A DNA stretch of 11,191 bases. Origin: Chloroflexota bacterium (GTDB lineage: Bacteria; Chloroflexota; Anaerolineae; Anaerolineales; Anaerolineaceae). Position 1 is the stretch's first letter. The number at the start of each line of letters is the position of its first letter. Positions 4,757 to 11,191 of this stretch are shown piece by piece. The notes under the pieces are model-generated. The model searched no databases and was not told the origin of the DNA. It worked only from the letters and a program-made list of their open reading frames with translations. The translations under genes and the position numbers were made by a program. The stretch spans positions 1 through 11,191 of the forward strand of contig JAJUJY010000140.1 of assembly GCA_029265085.1 (NCBI GenBank), given 5' to 3'.

Positions 4757-6223
4757 ATGTCCAAGTTCCAGTTCAAGTTCCAGCTTTATAAACACCTGCA
4801 AGCAAATGCTGCCAACATCTACGCGGAAGCACGCAAAGCCGCCGAAGAAATTGGTATCACCCCGGAAATGAAAGGCAATATCGGTTTAACCGGCGCTGTT
4901 TCCGGCTGCCACGGTTTATTAACAGAAGAAGTTGACCGCGCTATCTCTGATGCTGCCCGCAAAGTCATCCCCAGCGCATATTACGATGAAAAAATCCGCG
5001 AAGTTGTCAAAGAATATTATGGTGATTCTTACGATGCCGCGTTAATCAACACCTGCGAAGCTGGTTTGAATGTCTCTTTTGATGTTTTGTGCATGCCGCC
5101 CTCAATGGGGCGCGGTGAAATGTACCGCGGCCGCTATGTTACCCTGTACGAACGCCACCTGCACCACCAGGGTGCTTATGGCCGCCCCTTCCCGCCCAAG
5201 TACAAAGAGGTCAACGCTGAACGCGGTGAAGCAGCCGGTGAATACGGCGTGCAGGGAAAGCGAGCCACCAATTTAGACACCGTTGTGGTGAAACCCGTTG
5301 GCGCCACCTACGAATGCCACGGTATCAAATACAACCCCATCCCCTCCATGCTGCATGTTGACGCCAAAGCGACCATTGAACAGCTTGGACAGGTGGCTGA
5401 ACGGCACACAGATACCCTGGTCGGTATCGCCTCCCTTGGCTATGACTCCCCCGGTTACGGCTACGGCGACAAAGACGAAAACGGCGCTCCTTTGCTGCAA
5501 ACCGGCATGGGCAAACTGGCCGCTAAATACGATATTCCCTACATCGTAGACAACGCCTGGGGTGTTCCTTTCCTCGGCACAGATATTCGCCAGATTGGCG
5601 CTGATGTCATTCTCTACTCCATGGACAAGGCCTCTGGAGCCCCCACCTGCGGTTTGATTATTGGTAAAGAAGAACCGATGGTGTTGATCCGCCGCGCCCT
5701 GGGTATTCACGGCGCTCGCTACGGAACCCTCTCTTCCCACGGCAAGGCCGCGTATGTCGGTTTTGATCCGGGTAAAGAAGCATTGGCTGGTGCCTATACC
5801 GCCATGCGCATTCTCAAAGACCGCGGCGGAATCGCCCTCAAGGCATTGGATGATCTGTACCGCATCACCCTGGAAGAATACGAACTGCTGCCTTCTGTCC
5901 TCAAGCACGATTGGGTGATCAGCAAGTCTGTGAACAGCCAGGCAGTTGAATTGAACTATGCCGACATGTGGGCCGATGGCAAAACTGGTCTGCCGATCTT
6001 CTCCATTGAAGATATGTACGCCGGCAGCCACATCCTGCAAAACTGCATGTCTCAGATGGGTATGGTTCCGACCATTGGTTACGATGCCAACATCTTCATC
6101 TCCAACGGTATTGGCAACCTGGATGCCGAAGGCAACCTGATTGAACTGCCGACCCGCCTTTCGGTTCGCGCGATGTTCAAATCCATTGAAATCATCGCCC
6201 GCTACGCCGGTCTGTTAGACTAA
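4757..6223 (+). CDS. Unassigned fold-type-I PLP-dependent enzyme (aminotransferase/lyase superfamily)
   Basis: A 488-residue soluble protein whose exact family I do not recognise. The core reads as a fold-type-I pyridoxal-phosphate enzyme: I-V-D265-N-A-W-G is the usual aspartate that pairs with the pyridine nitrogen, and S-M-D-K291-A-S-G-A-P-T-x-G-L-I-I-G is the usual Schiff-base lysine block, spaced as in Cys/Met-metabolism and SelA-like enzymes. A G-L-T-G-A-V-S-G-C-H segment (43-52) near the N-terminus and the tyrosine- and histidine-rich part around 123-142 may help shape the active site. A strong ribosome binding site GGGAG precedes the ATG by 6 bases. It leads the genes for a diaminopimelate-dehydrogenase-like protein and a racemase, so its substrate is probably a diamino or D-amino acid handled by all three. 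Lyase, aldolase and aminotransferase activities all remain possible. Confidence 0.8.
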   Translation: MSKFQFKFQLYKHLQANAANIYAEARKAAEEIGITPEMKGNIGLTGAVSGCHGLLTEEVDRAISDAARKVIPSAYYDEKIREVVKEYYGDSYDAALINTCEAGLNVSFDVLCMPPSMGRGEMYRGRYVTLYERHLHHQGAYGRPFPPKYKEVNAERGEAAGEYGVQGKRATNLDTVVVKPVGATYECHGIKYNPIPSMLHVDAKATIEQLGQVAERHTDTLVGIASLGYDSPGYGYGDKDENGAPLLQTGMGKLAAKYDIPYIVDNAWGVPFLGTDIRQIGADVILYSMDKASGAPTCGLIIGKEEPMVLIRRALGIHGARYGTLSSHGKAAYVGFDPGKEALAGAYTAMRILKDRGGIALKALDDLYRITLEEYELLPSVLKHDWVISKSVNSQAVELNYADMWADGKTGLPIFSIEDMYAGSHILQNCMSQMGMVPTIGYDANIFISNGIGNLDAEGNLIELPTRLSVRAMFKSIEIIARYAGLLD

Positions 6224-8460: not shown

Positions 8461-9099
8461 TTAAGCGACTTCGTCTTCCTGGGGGTGGGCATTCGCCGAG
8501 GCCAAATGATATTCACCCGGCCGCTCACCCTCATCAAAACAGGAAACAACCATCACGGCATGGACTGCCGCAGGTCCCGGATTACGCCAGTGATGGAGCA
8601 AACGCGCTGCAAACATTAAGCTGTCGCCGGGTTCCAACACATACACTTTCCCTTCCACTTCGTATTCCAACGTTCCCTGCAGACACAAGATAAATTCATT
8701 TCCGGAATGGATCATTCCATGCGAACCGCTTGACGCCCCCGCATCCAGGGTCAACATAGATGCTTCCACTTTGCCTACAAAGTTCTCTCCACCCATACCT
8801 TCCCATAGACCTTGCGTAAAAGAAATGCGGGAGCGTTGGCTGGCTTTGTAATAAACCACTTTGGATTTTTCGGGTTCAATCCGGAAAAAGGCCGTGACTG
8901 GCACTTCCAGAGCATTTGCTAATTTGTTCAATGTACTCACCGACGGGGATGTTAAACCACGTTCAATCATGCTTAACGCATTCGCAGAAAGACCGCTCCG
9001 CCGTGCCAGGCTGCGCATGGAAATCCCCCGTTCCTCACGCAGAGCTTTTAAACGCTGCCCGACATCGATTGATAAAGCTTCCTTTGCGAAAATTTCCAT
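8461..9099 (-). CDS. XRE-family regulator with C-terminal cupin domain
   Basis: A 212-residue regulator that joins a lambda-repressor-type helix-turn-helix (about residues 12-70: VGQRLKALREERGISMRSLARRSGLSANALSMIERG) to a small-molecule-binding cupin barrel (about 110-187). Cupin motif 1 shows H131, E135 and the G-x-L-E-Y-E-V-E-G-K turn; motif 2 shows P157-G-D and H169-H170, so a metal or ligand pocket is present. I chose the ATG at 9099 since GGAGG (9104-9108) lies 4 bases upstream; the longer TTG start at 9147 has none. Regulators of this type often control amino acid, polyamine or sulfur-compound genes. It converges on the racemase gene with 11 bases between stop codons, and is divergent from the cytochrome-YeeE operon, so either set could be its target. 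Confidence 0.9.
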   Translation of the reverse strand: MEIFAKEALSIDVGQRLKALREERGISMRSLARRSGLSANALSMIERGLTSPSVSTLNKLANALEVPVTAFFRIEPEKSKVVYYKASQRSRISFTQGLWEGMGGENFVGKVEASMLTLDAGASSGSHGMIHSGNEFILCLQGTLEYEVEGKVYVLEPGDSLMFAARLLHHWRNPGPAAVHAVMVVSCFDEGERPGEYHLASANAHPQEDEVA

Positions 9100-9137
9100 A
9101 CCGCCTCCACTGTCATTGATAATGATGGGGATTGTAA

Positions 9138-9149
9138 ATTTGACCAAAT
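9138..9149. promoter_or_regulatory. Palindrome in the leader of the XRE-cupin gene
   Basis: ATTTGACCAAAT has perfect five-base arms (ATTTG/CAAAT) around AC. It lies about 10-20 bases downstream of the predicted start of the XRE-cupin transcript and is a candidate autoregulatory site. Five-base AT-rich arms are weak evidence on their own. Confidence 0.3.
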
Positions 9150-9381: not shown

Positions 9382-10518
9382 ATGCGCAAATTGCCGCTTT
9401 GGATCATTCTTTCGAGCATAGGTATGCTTGCGATCCTGGCATTGCTGATTGACTCCAAGCCAGCCAATGCGCAATGCGGGATACCCACCTCTTGCAATAC
9501 CTGTCATGAGGTTCAGGGTCAATACCCGGTTGGAGAAAAAGGCATCTGGCACTCGCAGCATAAACCCTATAATGCCTGTGTCCTATGCCACGGGGGCAAT
9601 AAGGATGTCAATGATCCTGCCCTGGCACACCAGGGCGTAACAACCAGCTTGAGCGATATGCAGTCCGCTTGTGCTAACTGCCACCCCAAAGATGTCCAGG
9701 CTCGTTACAAGCAGTACGCTGACCAGGCGGGTGTTTCCAGCCAGATCACCACCTCCAGCACGTCAAACAACGGCATTGCCAGGGTATTAGGCAGCGGACC
9801 TGCTAATGTTGCCGAAGAGCCCCAAGAGACTTCAATGCCTTCTACCCTAACCGCCACTCCGGAAAACCAAAGGCTGAATTGGATACTCGGCAGCATTTTT
9901 GCTGTGGGAATTTTGGGCGGCGGCAGCTATATCGCCTGGAATGAGCAGCGTAAGAAGCAGCGCAGCGGAAGCCAACTGCACTGGCCAGCCTGGATCTTTT
10001 CCCAAATCCGCCAAGAGAACTGGTCGCCGTACATGGCGGGTATTCTGTTAGGCGTGATTGCCATCCTGGCTGTAGTGATTGGCAACCATTTATTAAGTGC
10101 ATCCAACGCAATAGCAACGGGCATGAGCAGTATACTCAGCCAGGTATTTCCCGCTCTGGCAGACAATATGTATTTCAAGTTCATCATGCCGCCCGGGTTT
10201 AACTGGCCTATCGCTTTGATGATTGGAATATTTCTGGGCGGTTTTCTTTCCAGCCTCAGCAGCGGCACCTTCCGGCTGCGCTGGAACGATGACCCAACCT
10301 GGCAAAAAGTCTTTGGAAAATCGCGGCTCAAACGCTTTCTAATCGGTTTTGCCGGAGCAATCATCCTCCAGTATGGGGCGGGAATTGCTGGCGGCTGTAC
10401 AAGCGGCCTGGCGATTTCTGGCGGGATGTTAATGGCACCTTCCGCTTTCCTGTTCATGGCCGGAATGTTCGCATCGGGTATTTTGGTTGCCATCCTGGTT
10501 TATCGCCGGAGGTATTAA
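9382..10518 (+). CDS. Three-haem cytochrome c domain fused to YeeE/YedE transporter half (first half)
   Basis: A 378-residue fusion. Residues 1-30 are a signal peptide (basic start, hydrophobic 7-22, cleavage after PANA). Residues 31-110 are exported and carry three c-type haem sites, C38-N-T-C-H42, C66-V-L-C-H70 and C97-A-N-C-H101, with extra histidines H57, H60 and H83 as possible axial ligands. A Ser/Thr-rich linker (115-162) leads to about five membrane segments (near 167-186, 218-236, 275-293, 316-337, 354-373). The motif G337-G-C339-T-S-G-L-A-I-S-G is the signature of the first half of YeeE/YedE (TsuA-type) thiosulfate transporters, C339 being the transport cysteine. The basic patch QRKKQR (189-194) puts the loop after the first segment inside, which keeps the haems outside. 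GGAG lies 8 bases before the ATG. The next gene supplies the other half. I know of no standard family with this fusion. Confidence 0.88.
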   Translation: MRKLPLWIILSSIGMLAILALLIDSKPANAQCGIPTSCNTCHEVQGQYPVGEKGIWHSQHKPYNACVLCHGGNKDVNDPALAHQGVTTSLSDMQSACANCHPKDVQARYKQYADQAGVSSQITTSSTSNNGIARVLGSGPANVAEEPQETSMPSTLTATPENQRLNWILGSIFAVGILGGGSYIAWNEQRKKQRSGSQLHWPAWIFSQIRQENWSPYMAGILLGVIAILAVVIGNHLLSASNAIATGMSSILSQVFPALADNMYFKFIMPPGFNWPIALMIGIFLGGFLSSLSSGTFRLRWNDDPTWQKVFGKSRLKRFLIGFAGAIILQYGAGIAGGCTSGLAISGGMLMAPSAFLFMAGMFASGILVAILVYRRRY

Positions 10519-10521
10519 TCC

Positions 10522-11076
10522 ATGAGTGCTTATTTAATCGCCATTGGTTTAGGAATTGGCTTCGGTTTTAGCCTGTCGAAAGGCGGGTTAACCCGTTACG
10601 GCAATATTGTTGGCGTTTTTCGATTTACCAACCTGACCGTCATTAAATTCATGCTCAGCGCTCTTGTGACTGCGTCAATCGGCCTGTATATTTTAAAAGG
10701 CATTGGGGTCGTTCAATTCCCCAGTATTCCCCCTACATATATCCTGGGAAATTTGCTTGGCGGGTTAATTTTTGGAATTGGCATGGCGCTAACCGGGTAC
10801 TGACCAGGCACCTGTGCCGCCGGGTCCGGCGAAGGAAAACTAGATTATCTTGTCTCTGGGATTTTGGGTTTACTGGCAGGTGCATTAATTTTTGGCTTGA
10901 CCTATCAGACCATTTTTCCACCCATTGTGAATATTGCTAATCTTGGCCCAGTCACCTTGCCAGGGCTGTGGAACGCCAATCCGCTGTTGGTTGTGGGTGT
11001 ATTTGCAGTCTTCACCATCCTGCTGTTTTACTTCTTAGAAAACGGAGGAAAACGAAAAGACCGGCTGGATGATTAA
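10522..11076 (+). CDS. YeeE/YedE transporter half (second half), predicted selenoprotein with in-frame UGA
   Basis: A 184-residue membrane protein if the UGA at codon 94 is read as selenocysteine. Before it runs G-M-A-L-T-G-Y and after it P-G-T-C-A-A-G-S-G-E-G-K-L-D-Y-L; together these are the family's G-Y-C-P-G-T motif, with UGA exactly where the conserved transport cysteine belongs. C98 is a second nearby thiol. Hydrophobic segments lie near 3-20, 40-60, 72-92, 109-129 and 155-175, with a basic C-terminus (KRKDR) as expected for a membrane protein; 90 sense codons follow the UGA in the same frame to TAA. Ending at the UGA would remove half of the fold. A strong GGAGG (10508-10512) overlaps the end of the upstream gene, 3 bases away, so both halves are co-translated. 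In TsuA the cysteines pass thiosulfate inward; the exact substrate here is unknown. A nonsense mutation or sequencing error is the main alternative. Confidence 0.85.
10801..10803 (+). other. Predicted selenocysteine codon (UGA, residue 94)
   Basis: TGA in frame with the gene that begins at 10522, replacing the invariant Cys of G-Y-C-P-G-T in YeeE/YedE. UGC or UGU to UGA is one base away, so only the conserved position, the intact downstream frame and the hairpin that follows argue for recoding; together they argue strongly. Confidence 0.8.
10804..10835 (+). promoter_or_regulatory. Candidate bacterial SECIS element
   Basis: Directly after the UGA, CGCCG (10818-10822) pairs with CGGCG (10827-10831) around the loop GGUC (10823-10826). 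CCU (10811-10813) can pair with AGG (10833-10835) to form a lower stem, leaving GUGC opposite a single A as an asymmetric bulge that contains a U. The loop begins 20 bases after the UGA; in E. coli fdhF, as I remember it, a GGUC loop begins 19 bases after. Known bacterial SECIS features (short GC stem, G in the first two loop bases, loop 16-37 bases from the UGA) are met. A competing small hairpin GGCA/UGCC (10807-10818) could stack on the upper stem instead. Confidence 0.7.
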
Positions 11077-11090
11077 CGCATCGGAGATCA

Positions 11091-11127
11091 AAAGACAGGG
11101 TCGAGCTTGTTTCTCGACCCTGTCTTT
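11091..11127 (+). terminator. Terminator of the cytochrome-YeeE operon
   Basis: AAAGACAGGGTCGAG (11091-11105) and CTCGACCCTGTCTTT (11113-11127) form a perfect 15-pair stem with loop CTTGTTT, followed by ATTTT. It lies 14 bases after the TAA at 11074-11076, which supports that stop, not the UGA, as the true gene end. It may work in both directions for the converging gene at the right edge. Confidence 0.88.
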
Positions 11128-11154
11128 ATTTTGTAGAAATAAACCAGAAGATTT

Positions 11155-11191
11155 TTAGAACAGGCCAATTACACGGCCAGTTTCCAGATCC
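11155..11191 (-). CDS. Possible C-terminal end of a minus-strand gene (cut by window edge)
   Basis: Read from the right edge on the minus strand, one frame gives D-L-E-T-G-R-V-I-G-L-F followed by TAA (11157-11155). The short peptide looks protein-like and sits just beyond a terminator that could serve both strands, so a converging gene is plausible. Twelve codons cannot identify a family or prove the gene. Confidence 0.35.
   Translation of the reverse strand, partial: DLETGRVIGLF

Follow-up and report, generated by a model that had tools for sequence, protein, structure and literature searches.

A predicted selenocysteine in a putative split YeeE-family pore associated with multiheme cytochromes

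UGA codon of a PmpB-like half-transporter gene

The 11,191-nucleotide stretch of DNA that we analysed (the window), probably from a Chloroflexota bacterium, contains a gene for one half of a YeeE-family transporter, and the UGA at codon 94 of this gene is almost certainly read as selenocysteine (Sec). That reading had been proposed in a first-pass annotation of the same DNA and is strongly supported by our results: a single codon is affected, a hairpin resembling a bacterial SECIS element follows it, Cys and Sec interchange at this position, and the genomes of relatives encode Sec machinery. With less assurance, we consider it probable that the product belongs to a split YeeE-family pore in which Sec94 serves as the central relay, passing sulfane sulfur inward beside a multiheme cytochrome. 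The gene and its landmarks are:

10522..11076, + strand: PmpB/YedE2-like YeeE half-transporter, a predicted selenoprotein of 184 amino acids (from the translation, a PF04143 match and 61 further UGA homologues)
10801..10803, + strand: in-frame UGA, codon 94, predicted Sec94, aligned with Cys91 of S. thermophila TsuA
10813..10815, + strand: TGT codon of Cys98, at i+4 from Sec; Cys in 62/62 Sec forms
11091..11127, + strand: terminator-like hairpin of 15 pairs on the 3' side of the PmpB-like gene (from a hairpin scan)

Translation of this frame gives 184 codons ending in TAA, with the UGA as the sole interruption. The gene starts 3 nt past the stop of the upstream gene, and GGAGG precedes its ATG. 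In all these respects (the extent of the gene, one UGA at the Cys of the motif G-Y-C-P-G-T, and the TAA end) the first-pass annotation was right, as translation and alignment confirm. It had also described a terminator after the TAA, which corresponds to the 15-pair hairpin; the scan returned five sites compared with 3.6 in shuffled sequence, and the stem at 11091-11127 is by far the longest. Likewise, the racemase gene in the window does end in UGA, and read-through there would add four codons before the next stop.

When the UGA is read through, the frame matches PF04143 (Sulf_transp) at 71.3 bits, above the gathering cut-off of 27, over positions 8-149 of the 310-position profile, which correspond to its N-terminal half. 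The portion preceding the UGA reaches 40.9 bits by itself. A database search gave 348 homologues. In the best 120 of these, the column of codon 94, which the first-pass annotation had suggested checking for Sec/Cys exchange, holds Cys in 116 rows and Trp in 4, and apart from the Y/F alternation every other letter of G-x-C-P-G-T is unchanged. The four Trp rows probably represent UGA translated by code 4.

A search for UGA at the same codon in related genomes had likewise been suggested, and 61 other loci carry it there. The DNA pattern G[YF]-UGA-P-G-T-x-[AV]-x-G-x-G-E-G, run on a genome collection, recovered 48 loci in 45 assemblies (counted by contig names), all from Chloroflexota: 47 from groups labeled Chloroflexota, Chloroflexi or Anaerolineae and one from Brevefilum (Anaerolineaceae). 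The identical pattern had no matches in viral contigs. Because the pattern itself fixes the position of the UGA, these 48 loci cannot test that position. An independent protein survey covered 298 genomes from a single class and, taking matches to E 1e-30, returned 39 matches in 37 genomes; 19 of these matches have one internal TGA, 15 have no internal stop and five have TAA or TAG. The TGA lies at the codon-94 position in 18/18 examined matches of the 19, the other (G264:C13) falling outside our locus set. The UGA form occurs in 18/298 genomes of the surveyed class. L110, the sole one of the five TAA/TAG matches that was inspected, has TGC at the codon-94 position, and the other four were dropped.

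After removal of 23 duplicates, the 48 pattern loci, the window and 13 new loci make up 62 distinct UGA loci. The Cys comparison set comprises 18 close loci with DNA, drawn from 31 after the 13 with alignment scores below 380 had been dropped as too distant. Among the 62 Sec forms the motif is YUPGT in 42 and FUPGT in 20, although 48 of these loci were chosen by a pattern that asks for that motif. Two assemblies hold multiple UGA copies: LaPlata_bin-0303 has three on different contigs (L008, L010 and L046), and Umea3p4_bin-0630 has two (L019 and L041).

The sequence beyond the UGA is open and conserved in the UGA loci (in L044 it is open to the contig end). With two rows left out, the median Ka/Ks is 0.22 after the UGA (504 usable pairs) and 0.175 before it (502 pairs). 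A protein search with the 93 residues that precede the UGA gave 169 matches, and all 120 of those listed, including the window's own, end in G-Y or G-F, as would be expected of UGA genes that have been cut short. Since these database entries stop right before the UGA, the sulfur operon is misread there.

A tree was built from 125 rows, comprising the 62 UGA loci, 21 Cys loci and 42 of the 120 database rows. It requires 12 Sec/Cys changes, at least 7 of them forced, and places the window among mostly Cys rows. Because local support is low and the bootstrap has not settled, we draw no origin of the Sec form from this tree.

Twenty of the 45 assemblies recovered by the pattern, together with 14 control genomes, were searched for Sec-insertion genes. 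SelA exceeded the cut-off in 19/20 UGA assemblies compared with 1/14 controls, SelB in 17/20 compared with 2/14, and tRNA-Sec in 17/20 (16 of them above 64 bits) compared with 5/14; given this last control count, weak tRNA-Sec matches were not trusted. The class survey has 18 UGA genomes, two of which are among the 20. Fourteen of these 18 have tRNA-Sec, and the remaining four all have SelA (one as a fragment), with SelB over the cut-off in two. At least one of SelA, SelB and tRNA-Sec is present in 36/36 of the UGA relatives' genomes tested. No clear tRNA-Sec was found in G002, G004, G010, G132, G181, G124 or G210, and G009 gave partial matches only; each of these genomes has SelA, SelB or both. 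The tRNA is equally common elsewhere, being present in 225/298 genomes and for 12/15 rows without a stop, and so it does not separate UGA from no-stop forms. Cys forms of the pore half are also found in genomes that have tRNA-Sec (for example G272, G299, G150 and G153), so losing the machinery does not account for the Cys form.

Predicted SECIS hairpin

The bases that follow the UGA can form a hairpin with the features expected of a bacterial SECIS element. In the window its predicted parts are:

10804..10843, + strand: predicted bacterial SECIS of class A, assigned from the class table; fits the bSECIS model
10811-10813 with 10833-10835, + strand: mid stem
10818-10822 with 10827-10831, + strand: upper stem
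10823-10826, + strand: predicted apical loop GGUC, with U10815 within the 5' bulge

Positions below are numbered with the U of the UGA as 1. Wobble-base variability was compared across G, A, P, T and V codons with at least 90% conservation among rows. It is lowest at codons +6 and +9 (0.58 and 0.56 bits), and the next value is 1.02. Pairs 19-30, 20-29, 21-28 and 22-27 are all formed in 61/62 Sec loci but in only 3/18 Cys loci. When codons were randomly exchanged for synonyms at the codon frequencies of these genes, the four pairs arose in a mean of 15.5 of 62 loci and a maximum of 29 in 2000 draws; this null takes related loci to be independent. At the wobble position of the Pro codon (base 6), a purine stands opposite U41 in 59/62 Sec loci compared with 2/18 Cys loci, a comparison made without control for codon usage.

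Two hairpin classes can be distinguished. Class A (22 loci, including the window) pairs 18-22 with 27-31 around a GGUC loop, adds a 17-32 pair in 18 loci and has U15 in 21/22. Class B (39 loci) pairs 16-21 with 25-30 around a GGN loop; its 21-25 pair is present in 33, and T21 occurs only with A25 (6/6). A mid stem of 11-13 with 33-35 is common to both classes, and its 12-34 pair forms in 54/61 loci. The GGUC loop resembles the loop of E. coli fdhF, and U15 resembles the bulged U of that element. L108 (1771-1818) is the most divergent Sec form and has lost the consensus hairpin; by eye, a longer stem with a GGU loop is possible there in another register.

Both classes match the bSECIS model as printed in the available part of PMC13188914, and the window hairpin fits it with a 5-bp stem and a GGUC loop 19 nt from the UGA. 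Folding programs gave a more mixed picture. For 48 nt of the window the minimum free energy (MFE) is -11.2, part of which comes from a second hairpin; the four apical pairs have probabilities of 0.74-0.76, and the MFE structure is without the mid stem. A 53-nt segment of the window is no more stable when folded than shuffled sequences are (z 0.50), and an Rfam search of 10000-11191 gave no relevant match. RNAfold places the four-pair register in the MFE structure of 17/62 Sec loci and 0/18 Cys loci, and RNAalifold returns the described stem for class B but another fold for class A, the class of the window. Within the four-pair helix, pair covariation analysis found no double-sided change and column shuffles were uninformative, so the wobble-site, Cys-control and recoding comparisons given above were used in place of the covariation count.

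Two other readings of the codon can be weighed against these data. Annotation pipelines do call a 93-residue piece, and together with the unremarkable folding of the window alone this might suggest that the UGA is a true stop in a decaying or truncated gene. We regard this as highly improbable, because all 18 examined UGA matches of the unbiased survey share the column, because the sequence past the UGA stays open and conserved (to the contig end in L044), and because the wobble bases of the hairpin are constrained. The four database proteins with Trp at the column could instead be taken as a sign that a changed code has UGA read as Trp or Cys. This idea has even less to recommend it, given that UGA ends the racemase gene and also terminates the PmpB-like gene itself, at the expected length, in 8/49 loci, and that the hairpin follows UGA but mostly does not follow Cys codons.

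Pore position, partner half and neighboring genes

A profile of 40 homologues (the window and 39 of the 120) was aligned to TsuA (6leo). In this alignment, from which the numbering is read, codon 94 falls on TsuA Cys91 and Thr24 on TsuA Cys22. As the first-pass annotation had implied, the Sec position is the counterpart of a TsuA relay cysteine, Cys91. The Cys22 column holds Thr in 58/62 Sec forms and Cys in none. Cys98 is present in 62/62 Sec forms, 14/18 Cys loci and 98/116 Cys database rows, counts in which related rows are not independent. An AlphaFold2 model of the half alone had a mean pLDDT of 69, and its search of the PDB gave no match better than E 3.2, leaving TsuA unmatched; this poor model was set aside.

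Upstream of the PmpB-like gene lie its likely partner and a divergent regulator:

9382..10518, + strand: partner, a 378-aa fusion of an N-terminal hydrophobic segment, three CxxCH motifs and a PmpA/YedE1-like YeeE half with GGCTSG (Cys)
8461..9147, - strand: divergent HTH-cupin regulator; five other Sec loci have a relative within 7 kb

The YeeE half of the partner matches PF04143 at 83.6 bits (cut-off 27) over positions 127-309 of 310, the C-terminal half of the profile. Proteins of this fused type have 76 near-full-length database members (P0242-P0317, including the window's), 74 of which carry three CxxCH motifs and GGCTSG. The other half, always with the GGCTSG Cys and never with UGA, is present in 60/60 Sec loci that have at least 300 nt upstream, and a frame with two or more CxxCH motifs is found in 47/47 of those with at least 1450 nt upstream. 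The cytochrome, which is likely extracytoplasmic, is fused to the PmpA-like half in the window and in L018.

Downstream, a molybdoenzyme cluster is present in 51/55 Sec loci with at least 700 nt on that side. The one representative identified, in L003, has a Tat-like RRDFLK start; its nearest NCBIfam model is PhsA (595 bits, below the 694 cut-off) and its nearest PDB entry is 2vpw, deposited as a thiosulfate reductase (468.8 bits). No molybdoenzyme was seen in the 391 nt that follow the UGA in the window, a span ending past the terminator-like hairpin, nor in the 1.9 kb downstream in L018 or the 7.3 kb in L026. Of 71 scanned loci, many of them too short to show such genes, 28 have an iron-sulfur subunit cluster nearby, 22 an NrfD/HybB-like gene, 21 an ArsR-type regulator, 10 a cytochrome b and 9 a multiheme cytochrome. 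Cys forms of the PmpB-like half occupy the same operon type as the Sec forms.

L018 pairs a window-like fused cytochrome-PmpA with a Sec PmpB, and genes for DsrC/TusE, DUF1641 and an ArsR regulator lie upstream there. Also upstream, at 1770-2999 on the minus strand, L018 encodes a protein matching NCBIfam NF049943 (type III sulfide quinone reductase, selenoprotein subtype) at 633 bits against a cut-off of 525; by eye this member is a Cys form (HSNC). A small-frame check of 80 loci, most of them short, found divergent TusA genes (PF01206) at L033:7161-7409 (66.8 bits) and L039:6963-7214 (69.2 bits). The UGA is about 3 kb away in both loci, and the two gene products are possible cytoplasmic sulfur acceptors. 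Within 5 kb of the window's UGA no TusA-like gene was found by motif.

Proposed sulfur relay and its relation to known systems

The cysteines of characterized relatives provide a framework for the Sec residue. PMC11073785 names Cys293, Cys91 and Cys22 of TsuA as the first, second and third cysteines, and PMC11582611 equates the Cys of PmpB with Cys91 and that of PmpA with Cys293 and proposes a heterodimer. According to PMC10812762, YedE1E2 is homologous to PmpAB and imports zero-valent sulfur, with both Cys residues required and a persulfide suggested. Across the available portions of these three papers, the choice between covalent and hydrogen-bond passage of sulfur along YeeE-family cysteines is left open.

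The first-pass annotation had compared the protein with TsuA-type transporters. The family and the Cys91 position stand, but the closest functional model is the split PmpAB/YedE1E2 system. As in that system, there are two adjacent half genes with one conserved Cys each at the Cys91 position (here Sec) and the Cys293 position; the equation of GGCTSG with Cys293 rests on which half of the profile is matched and on the description in PMC11582611. The two differ in that each half is about 130 aa in PmpAB/YedE1E2, compared with 184 aa and a 378-aa fusion here, and in that the present system has Sec at the Cys91 position, an additional Cys98 and a multiheme cytochrome to which the partner half is fused or linked. 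The likeness to the TsuA/YeeE thiosulfate transporter (PDB 6leo and 8k1r) lies in PF04143 and in the alignment of Sec94 with Cys91, whereas the window protein has half the length and Thr24 in place of Cys22. Its scores against the TsuA equivalog models are far below the cut-offs (20.2 of 645 bits for NF041049 and 31.7 of 400 for NF052577).

From these homologues and the neighboring genes, we infer that Sec94 carries sulfane sulfur. The PmpA-like and PmpB-like halves would form one pore, in which the outer Cys of GGCTSG, at the position of TsuA Cys293, would take up the sulfur species. At neutral pH, Sec is in its selenolate form. Sec94 could then attack the sulfur species and hold its sulfur as an Se-S persulfide. 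Cys98, perhaps replacing the lost inner Cys (Cys22, now Thr24), might either receive the sulfur or close a selenenylsulfide, while at the outer mouth the cytochrome might act as electron donor or acceptor. The sulfur source would be the PhsA/PsrA-like enzyme in most loci and the sulfide:quinone reductase in the window-like L018; on the inside, carriers of the TusA or DsrC type may take the sulfur over.

The first-pass annotation had also suggested that the protein may perform redox chemistry on its cargo, an idea that gains plausibility from the cytochrome, the molybdoenzyme close by and Cys98. In a stronger version, which we advance only tentatively, the pore would be a heme-coupled selenium gate: an Se-S persulfide forms from the outer face, Cys98 resolves it, and the fused cytochrome sets the redox state, such that transport and redox conversion are one reaction. 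If Sec is indeed present in a transmembrane sulfur pore, the proposed hydrogen-bond relay becomes a testable covalent relay, and the residue provides a selenium label at the disputed centre of the sulfur pathway.

The same residues might serve other purposes. Proteins of the DsbD/CcdA type shuttle reducing equivalents across the membrane, and the Sec pair could likewise be mainly an electron conduit that links cytoplasm and cytochrome, with reducing equivalents carried by a Sec94-Cys98 selenenylsulfide and the partner Cys. The invariance of Cys98 in Sec forms, compared with its incomplete conservation in Cys forms, is in keeping with this idea, as are the CxxCH frame in every locus with sufficient upstream sequence and the redox enzymes alongside. 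We nonetheless judge it unlikely, since the YeeE-family members that have been studied move thiosulfate or zero-valent sulfur and the neighboring genes handle sulfur. Alternatively, Sec might be present because the cargo is itself selenium, with the pore acting like the YedE transporters (TIGR04112), distant homologues that are linked to selenium genes in PMC5322559. The weak similarity to TIGR04112 (26.6 bits) is far below the cut-off of 200, no sel gene occurs among eight annotated neighbor representatives, the molybdoenzyme is of the thiosulfate/polysulfide type, and the Cys forms sit in the same operon. A selenium cargo is accordingly a still weaker proposition, and we favor the inward relay of sulfane sulfur through Sec94.

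The first-pass annotation had left undecided whether this selenoprotein family was already described. YeeE/YedE selenoproteins are known as a class, since WP_012471001.1 is listed with the motif GUxSG in both PMC13188914 and PMC9312934. That protein, like the present one, is a PF04143 member predicted to hold Sec, but its GUxSG motif differs from the G[YF]UPGTC found here, as does the heme linkage of the present family. The available part of PMC5322559 does not describe YedE as a selenoprotein, and YeeE/YedE was not found in PMC2398784, PMC5029168, PMC12013277 or PMC1794560. Our literature search found no report of the G[YF]UPGTC subfamily in the passages and listings that it covered, and sources beyond these could name it.

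Elsewhere in the window, positions 4757-6223 encode a PLP-type enzyme of 488 aa that has no match in Pfam and only a weak one in NCBIfam (TIGR01437, 28 bits); its gene stands in a row with those for a GntR regulator, diaminopimelate dehydrogenase and alanine racemase. In positions 1-842 an aldehyde ferredoxin oxidoreductase is represented by its C-terminal part, after which comes a small protein that ends in GAGG, has no NCBIfam match and is, by eye, possibly a MoaD-like carrier.
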